Assembly: GCF_000380105.1 (NCBI RefSeq)
Contig: NZ_KB904451.1
Coordinates: forward strand, 1-61,599
Length of the DNA stretch: 61,599 bases
Reading direction: 5' to 3'
From: Streptococcus orisratti DSM 15617
GTDB taxonomy: Bacteria > Bacillota > Bacilli > Lactobacillales > Streptococcaceae
Part shown: positions 9,860-55,149 of the stretch, in pieces
Position numbering within the stretch: position 1 is the first letter of the stretch
Layout: each line of letters starts with the position of its first letter
Translations under genes and position numbers: made by a program
Notes under the pieces: model-generated
What the model saw: the letters and a program-made list of their open reading frames with translations, nothing else
What the model was told of the DNA's origin: nothing
The model's database searches: none

Positions 9860-10003
9860 AATGAGAAAAGCAGAAGTGAGAACTTCTCGCCTTGCGACTA
9901 AGGTTGTCTGGCCCAACATGTCAAAATTCCTCGGGGATATTATGTATGTGTGCGGGCTTGATTTATCAGGTCCGCTTTCGTTTTTCTCTAAAAAAATGAA
10001 GAG
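9860..10003 (+). promoter_or_regulatory. infC/L20 leader with attenuator
   Basis: The leader begins near 9860. It holds a 6-bp stem capped by a GAGA tetraloop (AGAAGT GAGA ACTTCT, 9872-9887). It also holds a strong 11-bp hairpin at 9952-9975 (GCGGGCTTGAT / ATCAGGTCCGC) followed by TTTCGTTTTT. That is an intrinsic terminator placed before infC, as in the L20-controlled leaders of Firmicutes, where L20 protein shuts off infC-rpmI-rplT. Confidence 0.8.
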
Positions 10004-47687: not shown

Positions 47688-48197
47688 ATGGTTATAGTGA
47701 GGAATGCTTTGGCTAGTGATGCCGAGGCTATTTTGGCATTTTGCCAGCAGGTTGGTTCAGAAACCGATAATTTGTCCTACGGAGGGGAAGGTTTGAGTGT
47801 TTCTGTTGCAGATGAGGGAATGTTTTTAGATGAGATTCAAAAATCTAAGACATCACATTTTTTAGTAGCCGAAGAAACTGGCGAGATAGTAGGGACGTGT
47901 AATTGTATTGCTTTTCGTAAAAAACGATTGGCACATCGTGCAGAAGTTGGTCTTGCGGTGAAAAGAGCTTACTGGAATCAAGGAATTGGGCATCAATTGT
48001 TAACGCGATTGATTGCGGTGGCGCAGCAATCAGGCTTAAAAGTCCTCTCGCTTGAGGTGCGATCTGATAATGACCGAGCGATTCATCTCTATGAAAGCCT
48101 TGGTTTTCAAAAACTTGGAACATTTAAGCATTTTATGGAAATTAATGGCCAAGTTATTGATTTTGATATTATGGAATTACTATTGGAGCAAAAATGA
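47688..48197 (+). CDS. GNAT family N-acetyltransferase
   Basis: This 169-residue protein has the GNAT fold. A VGLAVKRAYWNQGIGHQLLTR motif near residues 88-108 binds acetyl-CoA, and SLEVRSDNDRAIHLYESLGFQKLG near 125 is the typical beta-5/alpha-4 region. The acceptor is unknown. GAGGG precedes the ATG at nine bases. The stop overlaps the start of the deformylase-like gene by four bases (ATGA), so the two are coupled. A link to protein N-termini is possible but unproven. Confidence 0.88.
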   Translation: MVIVRNALASDAEAILAFCQQVGSETDNLSYGGEGLSVSVADEGMFLDEIQKSKTSHFLVAEETGEIVGTCNCIAFRKKRLAHRAEVGLAVKRAYWNQGIGHQLLTRLIAVAQQSGLKVLSLEVRSDNDRAIHLYESLGFQKLGTFKHFMEINGQVIDFDIMELLLEQK

Positions 48198-48604
48198 TTA
48201 AATCAATTGTAAAAGATACCTTCTTTCTTAGCCAGCCATCTGTTGAGGCGACTAAGGCTGATTTGTACCTAGCTGAGGATTTGCAAGACACACTTGAGGC
48301 AAACAAGGAGGCCTGTGTTGGTATGGCTGCTAATATGATTGGTGTGAAAAAGCGTGTTATTATTGTGAACATGGGACTAGTCAATCTTGTCATGTTTAAT
48401 CCTATTATAACAGCTAAATCACTGCCATTTGAAACTGAGGAGTCTTGCTTGTCTCTGACTGGTTCGAGAAAAACGCTGCGCTATCAGCAAATTGAGGTCA
48501 GTTTTTGGGATAAATATTGGCAAAAGCGTAGCTTGACTTTGACAGGATTTTCAGCACAGATTTGTCAACATGAAATAGACCATTTGGAAGGTATTATCAT
48601 TTGA
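48194..48604 (+). CDS. peptide deformylase-like protein with altered motif 1
   Basis: The 136-residue protein has the deformylase fold. Motif 3, QHEIDHLEG, is intact and motif 2 reads EESCLS, so the three metal ligands (Cys, two His) are kept. Motif 1, normally GxGLAAxQ, reads VGMAANM: the catalytic Gln is Met. It also lacks the C-terminal helix of typical enzymes. It may have a changed activity or be inactive as a deformylase. Streptococci usually carry a normal def elsewhere, so this is likely the secondary copy. Confidence 0.85.
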   Translation: MIKSIVKDTFFLSQPSVEATKADLYLAEDLQDTLEANKEACVGMAANMIGVKKRVIIVNMGLVNLVMFNPIITAKSLPFETEESCLSLTGSRKTLRYQQIEVSFWDKYWQKRSLTLTGFSAQICQHEIDHLEGIII

Positions 48605-48679
48605 ATGGAAATAATTTGCCCTATTATACTTGACTTAACGGGGCTTTGTAATAAATCTTAAAAAATTTTTGAAAAAGCC

Positions 48680-48708
48680 TTTACATCTTTTGTGAAATTT
48701 GTTACCAT
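48680..48708 (+). promoter_or_regulatory. promoter of the leader peptide/exporter operon
   Basis: TTTACA (48680-48685), 17 bp, and TGT-TACCAT (-10 at 48703-48708). Confidence 0.65.
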
Positions 48709-48741
48709 TATGCGTAGATTAAGAGAAAGGAGCAACTAAAA

Positions 48742-48807
48742 ATGAACAACAAAGAATATGGAACAGTTGTCTTTTTTGAAAAACTCCTTTCTGACCGATT
48801 GAATTAG
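48742..48807 (+). CDS. 21-residue leader peptide
   Basis: AAAGGAG at 48726-48732 precedes an ATG that opens a 21-codon frame, MNNKEYGTVVFFEKLLSDRL plus Asn, then TAG. It ends just before a strong hairpin and the intrinsic terminator ahead of the ABC exporter genes. That is the layout of a translated attenuator leader, as for bmrB before bmrCD in Bacillus. AGAAAGGAG (48724-48732) is fully complementary to CTCCTTTCT (48784-48792) inside the frame, so the peptide's own ribosome-binding site can be masked. Confidence 0.7.
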   Translation: MNNKEYGTVVFFEKLLSDRLN

Positions 48808-48808
48808 C

Positions 48809-48879
48809 TTGTTTTTTGCTGTCCAAAAAACAATATAAATGAGCCCGCGGTAGGAAGGTAGTCTTATTGCGGGCTTTTT
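48809..48879 (+). terminator. attenuator: hairpin plus intrinsic terminator before the exporter genes
   Basis: Two bases after the leader stop, TTGTTTTTTG pairs with CAAAAAACAA around CTGTC (48809-48833). Then AGCCCGCGGTA pairs with TATTGCGGGCT (48842-48852 with 48865-48875, two G-T pairs), followed by a T run to 48879. The terminator lies 34 bases before the first exporter start. Confidence 0.85.
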
Positions 48880-48912
48880 GTGTGCTTTTGAACGAATAGA
48901 AAGAGGAATTTT

Positions 48913-50640
48913 GTGTTTAAGTTAGTTTTAGAGTATGTTAGGAAGAATAAATGGGTTTACTTGCTAGTTGCGGTAACCTTGATTCTTTATGACGCGACCT
49001 TGGTAATTCCAACTCAGGTGGTGCAACGTTTGGTGGATGCTATTGGTAGTCATCATTTGACTGAAAAAGGGTTGCTTTTAACGGTAGGTTTCTTGATTTT
49101 GTCAACCTTGGTCAATTATGGTACTGCCTTTATTTGGCATTTAAAATTATTTCAGCAGTCTATCCATTTTAAATTTGATATGCAACAGCGTGCTTTTTAT
49201 AAGTTAGTTACCATGCGGACGCCATTTTATGAAAAATTTCGTTCGGGTGATATGATGACTCGTTTTTCAACGGACGTGGAAATGCTACAGGAGATGGTGG
49301 GTTATGGGCTGATGATTATACTTTATGCGGGTGGCATGATTGCATTTATCATTCCTGTCATGTTTATGATTTCTTGGCAAATTGCCCTTCTGGGTATGAT
49401 TCCTATTGTTATTATGACCTATGGGACTTACAGGGTGTCAAAACCACTGGATGAGAAGGTGGAAGAGGCGCGTGAAGCTATTTCTGAGCTTAGTAATGAA
49501 GTTTTAGAAACAGTTGAAGGCATTCGTGTCATTCGGGCCTACAGTAAAAAAGCGAATCAATCTAATCGTTTTGCGCAAAAGACGGCTGGACTGGCTACTC
49601 GTTGGAATGATATTGCTCGTTACCGTGCTCTTTATATGCCTATGTTCAGTTTCATGCTGGGGCTGAGCACAGTTTTAGTTTTAGGTTCTGGTGTTTTCTT
49701 TATGCAGAAAGGACAGGTGACATTAGGACAGGTGGTTGCCTTACAACTCTACATTGTCTCTTTAGTAGAGCCATTCTCCATGATGTCAGATTTCATCCTG
49801 GTTTACCAGACAGGTAAGACTTCCTTTGATAAAATCAATGAATTGATTGAGACAGGGGATGATATGGAAAAAGATGGGGATCTTGAACTGACAGAGTTAA
49901 GAGACATTAGCTTCAAGGATTATAGTTTTGTTTACCCGCAGGCCAGTCAGGATAGTCTCAAAGCGATTTCGCTGAACTTGAAAGCTGGTCAAACACTTGG
50001 TGTGGTCGGAAAGACTGGGTCGGGTAAGACAACTTTTGTGCGTCAGTTTTTACGTCAGTATCCTGTCGGTCATGGTATTTTTGAGGTCAATGGCAGAGCA
50101 GTGACAGATTATTCTCGTCAGTCATTGGAAGCCTTAATTGGTTATGTGCCGCAAGAGCATATTCTCTTTTCGCGAACAGTAGGTGAAAACATCGCTATGG
50201 GGAAGGTAGCCGCTAGTCAGGATGATATTCTAACTGCCATTGAGACAGCGGTATTTTCAGAGGACGTGATACGAATGAACAAGGGGATAGATACAACCAT
50301 CGGTGAACGTGGGGTATCCATCTCGGGTGGACAGAAACAGCGCATTTCAATCGCACGAGCTTTTATCCGAAAGCCGCAGTTGTTGATATTAGATGATTCA
50401 CTATCAGCGGTTGATGCGAGAACAGAGCGCAGCATTATCCAAAATATCCAAAAAGAACGTGCAGGTAAGACCAACATCATCGTCAGTCACCGCTTGTCTG
50501 CGGTTAACCACGCTGACTGGGTGATTGTTTTGGATGAGGGACGAATTGTCGAGGAAGGCACGCCTGAACAGCTCTTGGCAGCCAATGGCTGGTATTACGA
50601 GCAATATCAACGCCAACAGGCTCAAGGAGAGGAGGAGTAA
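48913..50640 (+). CDS. heterodimeric ABC multidrug exporter subunit (BmrC/YheI-like)
   Basis: This 575-residue half-transporter has six membrane segments in residues 1-300, Walker A GKTGSGKTT near 367, signature ISGGQKQR and Walker B LILDDSLSAVD near 492, with Asp in place of the catalytic Glu. It resembles BmrC/YheI. The start is GTG at 48913 with AAGAGGA before it. It is preceded by a leader peptide and attenuator and translated with the partner one base downstream. Confidence 0.87.
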   Translation: MFKLVLEYVRKNKWVYLLVAVTLILYDATLVIPTQVVQRLVDAIGSHHLTEKGLLLTVGFLILSTLVNYGTAFIWHLKLFQQSIHFKFDMQQRAFYKLVTMRTPFYEKFRSGDMMTRFSTDVEMLQEMVGYGLMIILYAGGMIAFIIPVMFMISWQIALLGMIPIVIMTYGTYRVSKPLDEKVEEAREAISELSNEVLETVEGIRVIRAYSKKANQSNRFAQKTAGLATRWNDIARYRALYMPMFSFMLGLSTVLVLGSGVFFMQKGQVTLGQVVALQLYIVSLVEPFSMMSDFILVYQTGKTSFDKINELIETGDDMEKDGDLELTELRDISFKDYSFVYPQASQDSLKAISLNLKAGQTLGVVGKTGSGKTTFVRQFLRQYPVGHGIFEVNGRAVTDYSRQSLEALIGYVPQEHILFSRTVGENIAMGKVAASQDDILTAIETAVFSEDVIRMNKGIDTTIGERGVSISGGQKQRISIARAFIRKPQLLILDDSLSAVDARTERSIIQNIQKERAGKTNIIVSHRLSAVNHADWVIVLDEGRIVEEGTPEQLLAANGWYYEQYQRQQAQGEEE

Positions 50641-50641
50641 G

Positions 50642-52384
50642 ATGGCTACGATTTTACAATTAGTGAAAGAATTAAAAGTTGTTAGGAGGCTATTTGCTGT
50701 GGGACTCTTATCCTTGTTGTTGGCAACAGCTGGCAATCAGTTAGCTCCCTTGATTTTGCAGCATATTATTGATCATGACTTGACAGGTGTTTCACATGGT
50801 TTGGTCTTGCATCAAGCTGATTTTTTGATAAAGCTTGCTATGTATATTGCTTTGCTTGCGGTAGCAGGTGTACTGCGCTACGGATCTTTTCGGATTTTGA
50901 TTGCTTGTGCTAATCAAATCGTGACAAATTTGCGTAATCGAGCCTATGATGTTATGCAATGTTTGCCGATTTCATATTTTGATGACAAGCCAGCGGGGAA
51001 GATTGCAACACGAATTGTCAACGACACGGAGACCTTGCGAAATCAATTTTATAATACACTTTTGTCACAGATTTTCATTACTTTGGTGCAAGTTATCTTT
51101 ATTTATGGAATTTTAATGACTTTGGACATCAAGGTGGGAATGGCTTTGCTCTTATTGGTACCTATTTTTTATGGTCTGCAGGTGCTTTATAAAAAAGCAA
51201 CGGACAAACCGATGAAGGATTTTTACGATGCTAGAAGCGAAGTCAATACACAGGTCAATGAAACCATGAATGGTGCAAGTATTATTCAGCTCTACCATCA
51301 GGAGGGGAGCGTTCTTGAAAATTTTGACAAAGTGGCCAGTCAGATGAGAAATGCTGATAATCGTATTGTTCTGGTGGACTCTGCGGCATCGTGGACGTTG
51401 ACTGAGTTGCTTAAATACACGGTGATTGCAGGTGTTTTGACTTTTATTGGCTATCAGTTTCTAGGTGGTAATTTGAGTGTTACCGCAGGTCGACTTTTCA
51501 TTTATATCAACTATGTGACGACCCTTTTTGATCTATTAGGAATGTTAGTGCGTCAGTTGCCAAATATTCAACGCTCACTGGCGACAGGTCGTCGTGTTAT
51601 GGAATTACTTGATGAAGAGACAGAAGCAGATAGTCAGGATGAACTTGAGGTGACTACTGGTGTGGTTGACTTTGACAATGTTAGTTTTGCCTACGATGGT
51701 CAAAACCAGGTACTCAAGAATATTTCTATTCATGCTAATAAGGGGGAGACGGTTGCCCTAGTCGGTCATACGGGTTCTGGGAAGTCTTCTATCATGAACT
51801 TACTCTATCGTTTCTATGATCCACAAGAAGGTACAATCAGTATTGATGGACAAAATATTCGTGAGTTTTCACGTGAGAGTGTGCGTGCTCAGATGGGTAT
51901 TGTTTTACAAGATCCTTATTTATTTACAGGAACTATTGCTTCCAATGTCACAATGGATAGTGACCTATTTTCTGATGAGCAAATCATCGCAGCACTGGAA
52001 AAGGTCGGGGCAGGAGAAATGCTTGCTAAATTGGAACGAGGTATTGATGAGATTGTTGTTGAGAAGGGGGCTGCCTTTTCAAGTGGTGAGCGCCAGCTTA
52101 TTGCCTTTGCTAGAACGCTTATAGCTAATCCTAAAATTCTTATCTTGGATGAGGCGACCTCTCACATTGACACGGAAACCGAGGACATTATCCAAAAGGC
52201 CATGGAAGTGGTTAAAGAAGGGCGAACAACCTTTATTATTGCTCACAGACTATCGACTATTCAAAATGCAGATCAAATTCTAGTGTTGGATGCTGGTCAA
52301 ATTGTTGAGCGGGGAACTCATGACCAATTGATGCAACTCAACGGTCGCTATGCAGAAATGCAGCGTATTCAGCAAAAAGTGTAA
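50642..52384 (+). CDS. heterodimeric ABC multidrug exporter subunit (BmrD/YheH-like)
   Basis: The 580-residue partner has membrane segments in residues 15-320, Walker A GHTGSGKSS near 376, signature FSSGERQL and Walker B LILDEATSHID near 502 with the intact catalytic Glu. The frame is open back to 50525, but GGAGGAG directly precedes the ATG at 50642, one base after the first subunit's stop, and family proteins start there. The pair probably pumps drugs; substrate not readable. Confidence 0.87.
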   Translation: MATILQLVKELKVVRRLFAVGLLSLLLATAGNQLAPLILQHIIDHDLTGVSHGLVLHQADFLIKLAMYIALLAVAGVLRYGSFRILIACANQIVTNLRNRAYDVMQCLPISYFDDKPAGKIATRIVNDTETLRNQFYNTLLSQIFITLVQVIFIYGILMTLDIKVGMALLLLVPIFYGLQVLYKKATDKPMKDFYDARSEVNTQVNETMNGASIIQLYHQEGSVLENFDKVASQMRNADNRIVLVDSAASWTLTELLKYTVIAGVLTFIGYQFLGGNLSVTAGRLFIYINYVTTLFDLLGMLVRQLPNIQRSLATGRRVMELLDEETEADSQDELEVTTGVVDFDNVSFAYDGQNQVLKNISIHANKGETVALVGHTGSGKSSIMNLLYRFYDPQEGTISIDGQNIREFSRESVRAQMGIVLQDPYLFTGTIASNVTMDSDLFSDEQIIAALEKVGAGEMLAKLERGIDEIVVEKGAAFSSGERQLIAFARTLIANPKILILDEATSHIDTETEDIIQKAMEVVKEGRTTFIIAHRLSTIQNADQILVLDAGQIVERGTHDQLMQLNGRYAEMQRIQQKV

Positions 52385-52731: not shown

Positions 52732-52759
52732 AAAAACTGACAGAATTGTTCAGTTTTTT
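52731..52759 (+). terminator. terminator before the rcr operon
   Basis: AAAAAACTGA-CAGAATTGT-TCAGTTTTTT; symmetric, so usable from either side. Confidence 0.85.
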
Positions 52760-52760
52760 T

Positions 52761-52811
52761 AGTTCTCCTGAGAACTTTTTTCTTGACAATAGTTCTCGTG
52801 AGAACTATAAT
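52761..52811 (+). promoter_or_regulatory. rcrR promoter with two identical-type palindromic operators
   Basis: TTGACA (52783-52788), 17 bp and TATAAT (52806-52811) form a consensus promoter. The 16-bp palindrome AGTTCTCSTGAGAACT occurs at 52761-52776 and 52791-52806, exactly 30 bp apart. The second fills the spacer and touches the -10. They are almost certainly the binding sites of the MarR protein encoded next. Confidence 0.88.
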
Positions 52812-52847
52812 GGTTTCTACAGTCTCAATTTGTCAGGAGGTGAGGTC

Positions 52848-53294
52848 GTGGAAAATCCAATAGCGGAGGCTAAAAATCTCTTAACTCAGTTTGAACAAGC
52901 AGCGGATACTTTTGCTAAAAAAAATGGTATTGAACATCTTGCAGGACCACAAGGTCGCGTCTTATTTTTCCTAGCGAAACAGAAAGATACCGAAATTTTT
53001 GTGAAAGACATTGAAAATTATTTACACATTTCAAAGTCTGTCGCAAGTAATCTTGTTAAACGCATGGCACGAAATGGTTTCGTCAAGACAATCCCATCTC
53101 GGACAGATAAGCGTTATAAGCAGATTGTTTTGACAGAATTGGGGTGCCAAAAAATAAAACCTCTGCAAGTCTTTCATGATGAAATGCAGTCTGTCTTGTT
53201 AAAAGACATTGATGTCGAGGAGCTTAAAACTGTTTTACGAGTCACAGAGCAGTTACGGGCAAATCTGAGAGCTTACCGAAAATCCATTGACTGA
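52848..53294 (+). CDS. rcrR: MarR family regulator (RcrR-like)
   Basis: The 148-residue winged-helix protein has ENYLHISKSVASNLVKRMARNGFV as recognition region (residues about 62-85) and RTDKRYKQIVLTELG as wing. AGGAGGTGA before the GTG at 52848 sets the start; the frame upstream to 52746 runs through the promoter and is not translated. It heads an operon with two ABC exporter genes, the same layout as S. mutans rcrRPQ, which links stress tolerance and competence. It probably represses its own operon through the two palindromes. Confidence 0.85.
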   Translation: MENPIAEAKNLLTQFEQAADTFAKKNGIEHLAGPQGRVLFFLAKQKDTEIFVKDIENYLHISKSVASNLVKRMARNGFVKTIPSRTDKRYKQIVLTELGCQKIKPLQVFHDEMQSVLLKDIDVEELKTVLRVTEQLRANLRAYRKSID

Positions 53295-53334
53295 CAAGGA
53301 CTTTCTTATTTTTACATATTACAAGGAGTAGTGC

Positions 53335-55149
53335 ATGTTAAAAATCTTAAAACGAATGAATGCTAAAGAAGTTACCATGATTATCTTGGCCATTGCATTT
53401 GTTTGCTTAAATGTTTTTCTGGATTTAAAAATTCCAGATTATATGTCTGACATTACCAAACTTTTGTCAACACAAGGAACTAAAGCCAAGGATATCTTTG
53501 CTTGGAATTTTGATGCACCGGGCATGCGCATGATTTTGCTCTCGTTGGGCAGTTTTGCTTCCTCGGTTATTGTTGGCTTTTTTGCAGCTCGTACAGCAGC
53601 AAGTTTTAGTACTCGCCTGCGTGACGATATTTTCCACAGCGTTCTGAATTTCTCAGATGCTGAGATTAAGAAATTTTCAATTCCTAGTTTATTGACTCGT
53701 ACGACCAACGATATTACACAAATTCAATTGGTCTTTACTATGGGGATTCAGGTTGTAACAAAAGGTCCGATTATGGCAATTTGGGCGATTACTAAGATAG
53801 CCAATAAGAATGGTGACTGGTTGTTAGCCTTGATTGTTGCTGTTGCGGTCATGTTCTTAATGATTCTCTTCCTATTAATAGCAGTTATGCCTAAGCAACG
53901 TCTCATTCAAAAATTGACTGACCAATTAAATAGTGTAACTCGTGAGTCTTTATCAGGTATCCGGGTAGTTCGTGCTTATAATGCTGAAGCCTACCAAGAT
54001 GATAAATTTGCCAAAGCGAATGATGATGTGACTAATCTTAATCTCTTTATCGGTCGTTCCATGGCTTTGTTGTCCCCGGTTATGACAGCAATTTCTAGTG
54101 GTTTGACTCTAGCCATTTATTGGATTGGAGCCCACCTGATTGAAGATATTGCCATTCCCAAAGATCCAACCTTGATTGCCGGAGCGATGAAGGATAAAGT
54201 TAATCTTTTTTCAGATATGGTTGTTTACTCATCGTACGCCATGCAAGTTGTCATGGGCTTTATGATGATGATTGCTGTTTTCTTCATTTTGCCACGTGCC
54301 ATTGTTTCATCAGGTCGTGTCAACGAAGTTTTGGAAACTGAGGGGTCAATACCTTATCCCGATAAAAGTCAGGCTCAACCAAGTGAAAAAGGTTCTGTTG
54401 AGTTTGATAATGTTTCCTTCCGCTACAGCAAAAATTCAGAAGCAGTCCTAGAACACGTCTCCTTTAAAGCGAAAGCTGGTCAAACGATTGCGTTCATCGG
54501 ATCAACAGGCTCTGGAAAATCAACCTTGGTTAACCTCATACCACGTTTCTACGATGCGACGGAAGGTACTATTAAGGTTGATGGTGTGGACGTTCGCCAA
54601 TACGATCACGATACACTTCATAAAATTGTTGGTTATATTCCGCAAAAAGCTGTGCTCTTTAGTGGCGATGTTACCTCTAACATGGACATGGGAATCAGTA
54701 ACAATTCCCCACTGGATGATGATAAAATCTGGGATGCTCTTGATTTAGCTCAAGGAAGAACATTCATTGAGATGAAGGAAGGTAAGTTGAAAGCGCCAGT
54801 TGCTCAAGGCGGTTCAAACTTCTCTGGTGGTCAGAAACAGCGCTTGGCCATTGCCCGTGCTTTAGCACGTAAACCTGAAATTATCATCTTTGATGATTCC
54901 TTCTCAGCACTTGATTACAAAACAGACCGAATCTTACGTTCCCGCTTGAAAGAACGTACAGCTGACATGACCAAATTGATCGTTGCTCAGCGGATTTCAA
55001 CCATTATGGATGCTGATCAAATTTTAGTTCTTGATGAGGGTAAGGTTGTTGGACAAGGAACACACCAAGAACTCCTTGCTTCCAATGCAGTCTACCAAGA
55101 AATTGCCTACTCACAACTTTCTAAGGAGGAATTAGAAAATGGAAAATAA
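53335..55149 (+). CDS. rcrP: ABC exporter subunit (RcrP-like, degenerate ATPase site)
   Basis: The 604-residue half-transporter has membrane segments in residues 13-325, Walker A GSTGSGKST near 389, signature FSGGQKQR and Walker B IIFDDSFSALDYKTD near 519, with the catalytic Glu replaced by Asp. It is very like the subunit at 38082 in its ABC domain. The last 11 bases overlap the partner gene. S. mutans RcrP is the nearest named protein I know in this setting. Confidence 0.83.
   Translation: MLKILKRMNAKEVTMIILAIAFVCLNVFLDLKIPDYMSDITKLLSTQGTKAKDIFAWNFDAPGMRMILLSLGSFASSVIVGFFAARTAASFSTRLRDDIFHSVLNFSDAEIKKFSIPSLLTRTTNDITQIQLVFTMGIQVVTKGPIMAIWAITKIANKNGDWLLALIVAVAVMFLMILFLLIAVMPKQRLIQKLTDQLNSVTRESLSGIRVVRAYNAEAYQDDKFAKANDDVTNLNLFIGRSMALLSPVMTAISSGLTLAIYWIGAHLIEDIAIPKDPTLIAGAMKDKVNLFSDMVVYSSYAMQVVMGFMMMIAVFFILPRAIVSSGRVNEVLETEGSIPYPDKSQAQPSEKGSVEFDNVSFRYSKNSEAVLEHVSFKAKAGQTIAFIGSTGSGKSTLVNLIPRFYDATEGTIKVDGVDVRQYDHDTLHKIVGYIPQKAVLFSGDVTSNMDMGISNNSPLDDDKIWDALDLAQGRTFIEMKEGKLKAPVAQGGSNFSGGQKQRLAIARALARKPEIIIFDDSFSALDYKTDRILRSRLKERTADMTKLIVAQRISTIMDADQILVLDEGKVVGQGTHQELLASNAVYQEIAYSQLSKEELENGK

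Follow-up and report, generated by a model that had tools for sequence, protein, structure and literature searches.

A predicted attenuator that reuses the leader's own Shine-Dalgarno sequence upstream of a likely tetracycline exporter in streptococci

Ribosome-mediated attenuation is a known form of gene control; what appears to be new in the locus described here is a predicted anti-antiterminator built from the Shine-Dalgarno (SD) sequence of the leader itself. The locus lies in a 61,599-nucleotide (nt) stretch of Streptococcus orisratti DSM 15617 (contig NZ_KB904451.1, positions 1 to 61,599, referred to below as the window), where a short leader frame and an intrinsic terminator precede the two genes of a heterodimeric ATP-binding cassette (ABC) exporter. 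Among described systems, bmrB/bmrCD of Bacillus subtilis resembles it: upstream of a heterodimeric exporter from the same family stand a leader frame and a terminator, with an antiterminator and an anti-antiterminator predicted as well (PMC4191407). As told in the text of that report, blocking translation of the bmrB leader lowered read-through and abolished induction by lincomycin, which is what a latch made from the SD would predict, and the function of the anti-antiterminator was left unclear by the authors. The bmrB frame, of 53 residues, itself holds the terminator and its predicted structures lie in nt 60-162 of the frame, whereas the window frame has 21 codons and ends at 48807, ahead of a terminator that begins at 48841, and the 5' strand of its predicted anti-antiterminator is the leader's own SD.

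A second parallel is vmlR of B. subtilis, in which a ribosome arrested at initiation on an upstream open reading frame (uORF) blocks the anti-antiterminator and lets the antiterminator form, and in which variants of the uORF still work (PMC9226507). According to the text of that paper, the vmlR system differs from the present locus in its three-codon uORF, in an SD that is single-stranded and stands before the anti-antiterminator stem, in its target, an ABC-F protein, and in its drugs, lincosamides and pleuromutilins. The patAB genes of S. pneumoniae follow the same logic of terminator, antiterminator and anti-antiterminator, and reporters there showed that the terminator holds expression down (PMC4319486). 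The terms 'leader peptide' and 'open reading frame' do not occur in the text of that paper as accessed, and patA follows hexA while the window pump follows a deformylase-like gene, so that the two are set apart by description. As the BmrB, vmlR and patAB attenuators are presented in the texts cited, a leader SD serving as a strand of the anti-antiterminator is a feature of none of them. The exporters TrexAB and Tet(46) belong to the same family as the window pump, and the genomes with a TrexAB candidate (G091) and with a Tet(46) pair (G038) carry the same leader design. In the main text of the TrexAB paper, as accessed, the strings 'leader', 'terminator', 'promoter' and 'induc' are absent and 'attenuat' occurs once, in the title of a reference (PMC12256430); among the open-access literature matches listed, judged by title and beginning of abstract, we recognised no attenuator at Tet(46) or TrexAB.

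In the window, a promoter, a short frame with an SD and an intrinsic terminator stand in that order 5' of the exporter genes (Table 1), and prediction and comparison indicate an antiterminator that overlaps leader codons and excludes the terminator. A preliminary description, made from the sequence of the window, had listed the promoter, the 21-codon leader with its strong SD, a post-stop hairpin, the terminator and the two exporter genes, and the order and places of all of them were as it gave them. The leader RNA (48715-48885) is more stably folded than every one of 200 dinucleotide shuffles (z -5.4), and in its minimum-energy fold the leader's own SD is paired with leader codons 15-17. This SD, AGAAAGGAG (48724-48732), is the exact complement of those codons, CTCCTTTCT (48784-48792), here called the anti-SD. 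Extended by GACC to CTCCTTTCTGACC (48784-48796), the anti-SD has a second complement, interrupted by one bulge, in GGTAGGAAGG (48849-48858) on the 5' arm of the terminator. Three helices are therefore predicted to compete in the leader RNA, namely SD:anti-SD, the antiterminator and the terminator.

Table 1. Parts of the leader-exporter locus in the window
Feature	Position	Strand	Basis
Promoter: -35 TTTACA 48680-48685, 17-nt spacer, extended -10 (TG) TACCAT 48703-48708	48680..48708	+	sequence
Leader SD, AGAAAGGAG; predicted 5' strand of the SD:anti-SD helix (anti-antiterminator)	48724..48732	+	sequence, fold, duplex across loci
Leader frame, 21 codons, MNNKEYGTVVFFEKLLSDRLN; ATG at 48742, TAG stop	48742..48807	+	open reading frame; counterparts in relatives
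Anti-SD, CTCCTTTCT; Leu-Leu-Ser codons, codons 15-17	48784..48792	+	fold and comparison
A/T-rich post-stop hairpin, -7.1 kcal/mol, z -3.1	48809..48833	+	folding
SD-like segment GGTAGGAAGG inside the terminator 5' arm; predicted antiterminator partner of the anti-SD	48849..48858	+	complementarity
Intrinsic terminator with U tract, -23.8 kcal/mol, z -5.7	48841..48880	+	folding
Exporter subunit A, 575 aa, GTG start, ABC_membrane and ABC_tran domains, Tet(46)/TrexA/BmrC-like half transporter	48913..50640	+	domain and family matches
Exporter subunit B, 581 aa, ABC_membrane and ABC_tran domains, best NCBIfam match Tet(46) B	50639..52384	+	domain and family matches

We consider it probable that these mutually exclusive helices form a leader-frame attenuator by which ribosome arrest at the start codon of the leader would turn on transcription of what is likely a tetracycline exporter, a prediction drawn from complementarity, folding and geometry. 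With no ribosome on the leader, the SD:anti-SD helix would close upon synthesis of the anti-SD, and the terminator would form. During free translation, a ribosome at the stop codon, some 12 nt past the anti-SD, would cover the anti-SD, and the terminator would form here too. If, instead, the ribosome stalls on the start codon or immediately beyond it, it would mask the SD while ending well short of the anti-SD, which, once freed, would capture the 5' arm of the terminator before the 3' arm exists, resulting in read-through into the pump genes. The sequence of the peptide would hardly matter to such a sensor, which would report arrest at initiation or at the first codons, the state that tetracycline produces. 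A ribosome on a start codon reaches about nt +16, the toeprint position of the 30S subunit in the text of the vmlR report (PMC9226507). The spacing is thus compatible with a switch that distinguishes ribosomes detained at the start from those that have moved past it, since +16 falls short of the anti-SD and a ribosome at the stop would cover most of it.

The A subunit is encoded in 50 of 144 genomes of the genus (E ≤ 1e-120). One of these (G006) was dropped, its A gene beginning at a contig end, and a leader with both SD and anti-SD was found upstream of the pump in all 49 examinable orthologues. Conservation of the 21-codon frame had been set beforehand as a test of the preliminary description, which in this respect is borne out by a leader of the same design in 49 of 49. 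A script detected 46 of these leaders, G015 was added by hand, and G021 and G026 were seen on a wider look upstream, the G021 leader lying 647 nt before the pump match. The 48-locus statistics given below cover the 46, G015 and G144, a locus found by its pattern; outside them stand G021, G026 and seven further streptococci, all with a leader. Matches of the pattern search away from pump loci mostly look, by eye, like the starts of longer genes. The window promoter is by itself weak, with 9 of 12 consensus bases, and promoter-like sites number 7 in 48300-49300 versus 2.7 in shuffles; upstream of 47 leaders the best promoter match averages 10.6 versus 7.8 in shuffles, and the -10 element ends 29-40 nt 5' of the leader ATG in 44 of the 47. 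Taken as a prediction from sequence, the attenuator is well supported by this comparison. The post-stop hairpin is weak or absent in several relatives and is therefore not a core part of the element, a finding that also rules it out as the antiterminator; it is possibly a pause hairpin for RNA polymerase.

Individual relatives show variants of the arrangement. In G015 (L064) the leader, anti-SD and terminator are present, but the A-subunit match in one frame is confined to residues 127-571, and the pump gene thus looks interrupted. At most loci of the Tet(46) clade (L175 and others) a second hairpin with a T tract, of about -24 to -28 kcal/mol, lies between the leader terminator and the pump gene, i.e. 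these loci have two terminators in tandem.

The 48 loci encode 38 distinct leader peptides of 19-34 codons, with little in common beyond Met-Asn and Leu-Leu-Ser and with a middle that varies freely. Where Leu-Leu-Ser occurs, in 28 of the distinct peptides, it is spelled CTC CTT TCT in 27 and CTC CTT TCA in one, the former spelling having, under the codon usage seen in three genes of the window, a chance of 0.004 per case. In three loci (G033, G070 and G005) the bases of the anti-SD are read in another frame, indicating that it is the RNA and not the peptide that is conserved. The Tet(46) clade has CTTCTCCAATCTC in place of CTCCTTTCT, and this still pairs both with the SD and with its own terminator. 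A leader conserved as a peptide arrest sequence was rejected in view of the loci in the other frame, the near-fixed codons and the diversity of the 38 peptides. The preliminary description had proposed a drug-sensing attenuator ahead of the exporter pair; the attenuator with its leader frame stood, in 49 of 49 orthologues, and the drug-specific arrest peptide gave way to a conserved RNA. Arrest that is specific to a peptide could still operate if the nascent leader peptide and a bound drug (a macrolide, chloramphenicol or an oxazolidinone) stalled the ribosome at one codon and shifted the same helices, in the manner of Erm leaders. Such a sensor would be in keeping with the strong SD of the frame, its place upstream of a pump of the resistance type and an Asn at residue 2 in 32 of the 38 distinct peptides; we nevertheless regard it as unlikely given the freely varying middle, the range of lengths from 19 to 34 codons and a conservation that lies in the RNA even across reading frames.

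Within the frame, the first base of the anti-SD core lies at nt 37-82 (median 46), and between the core and the stop there are 11-22 nt, with 12 nt precisely in 25 of the 38 distinct peptides. The anti-SD sequence of the window and of most other loci, CTCCTTTCT, is that of the 3' tail of 16S rRNA. It forms the end of a 17-base pattern of which three genomes have 10 copies; of these, one was checked in G000 and one in G038, and both are 3' ends of 16S matches. This copy of the 16S tail could suggest a contest for the SD between the RNA and 30S subunits, in which case the switch would report the number of ribosomes capable of initiation rather than a drug-stalled ribosome. At one locus, G026 (L179, 1279-2462), the leader and terminator are followed first by an RsgA-type GTPase gene and then by the pump; the switch would there control the GTPase gene besides the pump, and GTPases of this family have a role in the maturation of the 30S subunit and the ribosome. 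Any complement of a good SD resembles the 16S tail, however, the tight distance to the stop speaks for an involvement of elongating ribosomes too, and the RsgA arrangement occurs in one genome only, so that we hold a sensor of free ribosomes to be very unlikely.

The predicted SD:anti-SD helix was found in every locus, the duplex between SD and leader ranging from -9.3 to -18.6 kcal/mol in 48 of 48, and its core pairs hold in 30-32 of 32 distinct SD/anti-SD combinations. The base after GGAG pairs in 18 of the 32 versus 12.1 on permutation (p 0.008), and over four flanking pair positions 79 pairs are formed versus 69.6 when permuted, with 15 of 5000 permutations as good. When leaders were recoded synonymously, the native duplex ranked within the top 5% for 39 of 40 distinct loci and within the top 1% for 34; with codon order shuffled it was in the best 5% in 32 of 38, and among the leaders found late G021 was also within this limit. 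Folding of partial transcripts suggests that the helix forms once the anti-SD is transcribed, as none of the 48 loci has fewer than 5 expected pairs at that point.

For the antiterminator, the anti-SD pairs better with its own terminator than with those of other loci (-13.8 versus -11.3 kcal/mol), and 0 of 20000 permutations were as good. Against shuffles that preserve the terminator stem, the duplex of anti-SD and terminator arm was in the best 5% in 25 of 40 loci and in the best 10% in 32 of 40, and a joint test of the whole chain of SD, anti-SD and terminator arm went beyond 95% of shuffles in 47 of 48. In RNA that ends with the 5' arm and has its start region masked, none of the 48 loci fell below 5 expected pairs between anti-SD and arm. 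In silico, then, a masked start frees the anti-SD for the terminator arm; a ribosome at initiation might open the anti-antiterminator in this way, as in VmlR-type uORFs.

The proposed inducer follows from the kinship of the pump. The A and B subunits of the window are nearest to Tet(46) in NCBIfam (NF000474/NF000475), at 753.6 and 774 bits, below the cut-off of 1250, and the pair of G038, preceded by a leader of this design, scores above both Tet(46) cut-offs with 1320.7 and 1349.7 bits. Orthology of the Tet(46)-like clade to PatAB was considered and rejected, since G038 passes these cut-offs and has other neighbours. Identity to the A subunit of the window is 66% for G091 (the TrexA candidate) and 55% for G038 (Tet(46)); the top PDB match of the window protein is YheI (E 1.3e-131), which we take to be BmrC, placing it in the BmrCD/YheIH family. 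In G091 the A gene, of 1722 bp, lies between three mevalonate-pathway genes and a gene for a surface-anchored 5'-nucleotidase, the size and neighbours given for trexAB of S. dysgalactiae, the removal of which is reported to lower the minimum inhibitory concentration of tetracycline 16- to 32-fold (PMC12256430). Under tetracycline, nearly half of the ribosome-profiling signal in E. coli is reported to lie at initiation codons (PMC4909307). Tetracycline is therefore the predicted inducer, because the related pumps Tet(46) and TrexAB export a drug that holds ribosomes at start codons, and by analogy it is likely to be the natural one.

Several results weigh against this mechanism or temper the tests that favour it. 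Export of tetracycline by the window pump is suggested by kinship, at 55-66% identity. With codon order shuffled, G026 (0.058) and G301 (0.054) narrowly miss 5%. Fifteen of the 40 loci, the window among them (0.055), fall outside the best 5% of stem-preserving shuffles, the anti-SD:arm duplex of G023 being no better than chance (0.71), and plain dinucleotide shuffles are passed at 5% by only 19 of 48 loci, a count that includes one misassigned anti-SD (G013). Kinship among the sequences makes the permutation tests look better than is warranted. With the anti-SD masked, the antiterminator forms in 0 of 48 loci, a result that is true by construction and has no value as proof. In ribosome-free RNA reaching to the 5' arm, fewer than 5 SD:anti-SD pairs are expected in 20 of 48 loci, including the window (3.5 pairs) and all 11 loci of the Tet(46) clade. 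The ribosome-free off state is therefore not a strict one, and in these 20 loci the modelled antiterminator would compete even in free RNA. Finally, in the full-length RNA of the window, on which alone this was run, the terminator is the best state in all three masking states.

This last result, along with the strength of the terminator, could mean that we are dealing with a constitutive partial terminator that merely sets a low basal level of the pump, the leader frame and the complementarity having no sensing role. Such a device would leave unexplained why the anti-SD is complementary to both the SD and the terminator, why its codons are near-invariant and why its distance to the stop is narrow, and we judge it quite unlikely. 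For the ribosome-controlled attenuator, the outcome at full length implies that the switch must act kinetically, during transcription. Pausing of RNA polymerase near the post-stop hairpin may help it to do so, bearing in mind that this hairpin is not constant.

The preliminary description had also spoken of a possibly distinct drug-sensing leader in streptococci; the design is not confined to them, as leaders complementary to their SD also precede BmrC/YheI-like pumps in other Bacilli. The sample from outside the genus comprised 62 loci, i.e. the first 20 of 80 listed BmrC-like loci and 42 further places, seven of which were hand-picked for inspection. A leader frame followed by a terminator was seen in 40 of the 62 and, by the rule used, was lacking in 22. 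Among these 40, the SD was complementary to the leader beyond 95% of codon shuffles in 26, and 14 missed 5%. The SD pairs better with its own leader than with swapped ones (-16.8 versus -12.7 kcal/mol; 0 of 20000 permutations as good). The helix between anti-SD and terminator is weakly supported there, since 147 of 20000 permutations did as well, and 5% is reached by the three-way chain in 14 of 58 loci (10 of 38 and 4 of 20). One of the leaders (L261, p 0.033) is that of a pump closely orthologous to YheI (1044 bits), and L262, with a leader of much the same sequence, misses (0.143). As controls, the three-way chain was found at 0 of 25 other exporter loci in five genomes, a weak control in that only 4 of the 25 have a terminator upstream, and in 0 of 58 reverse complements, 6 of them with a terminator; the looser test of SD against frame was positive at 6 of the same 25 exporter loci.

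The SD latch may thus be the older part of the design. Going further, one may speculate about a latch common to the Bacilli as a class, in which the last codons of the leader copy the anti-SD tail of 16S rRNA and the terminator copies the SD, so that a ribosome parked at the start of any peptide would open the gate to the exporter. Such a sensor of initiation arrest, free of sequence demands and suited to tetracycline, would guard the Tet(46)/TrexAB/BmrC lineage, its sequences having drifted while the complementarity was kept. We put this wider proposal forward tentatively, as somewhat short of an even chance.

If the predicted mechanism is true, it would explain how intrinsic streptococcal tetracycline exporters are repressed and induced free of any protein regulator, and it would give the anti-antiterminator a plain function, one of its strands being the site at which ribosomes bind the leader. 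The switch would make no demands on the peptide and should thus respond to every drug that arrests ribosomes at start codons. For tet(M) of Tn916, the product of which protects ribosomes and exports no drug, tetracycline-responsive transcription is likewise attributed to a short leader frame and terminators. Genomes can be screened by the rule found here, an SD complementary to late leader codons and then a terminator, and such screens might bring to light drug-induced genes that searches based on peptides have missed.

The neighbours of the leader and pump differ between species, comprising a deformylase-like gene in the window, GNAT and YbeY genes in the Tet(46) genome (L175, G038), and mevalonate and nucleotidase genes with the TrexAB candidate (L182, G091). 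As judged from these differences, leader and pump seem to be mobile as one unit. The window pump lacks the TrexAB setting of mevalonate genes and an S5nA-type nucleotidase, and follows GNAT and deformylase-like genes, the latter a short peptide-deformylase-like gene beside the pump operon at 48194-48604 (NCBIfam PRK09218, 216 bits, cut-off 162). Directly downstream of the pump, at 52746-55149, a MarR-type regulator is followed by further ABC exporter genes. The window leader reaches the gathering score of no Rfam family; the sole Rfam match in the window is a ribosomal protein L20 leader (L20_leader, RF00558) at 9862-9989, with 78.3 bits.
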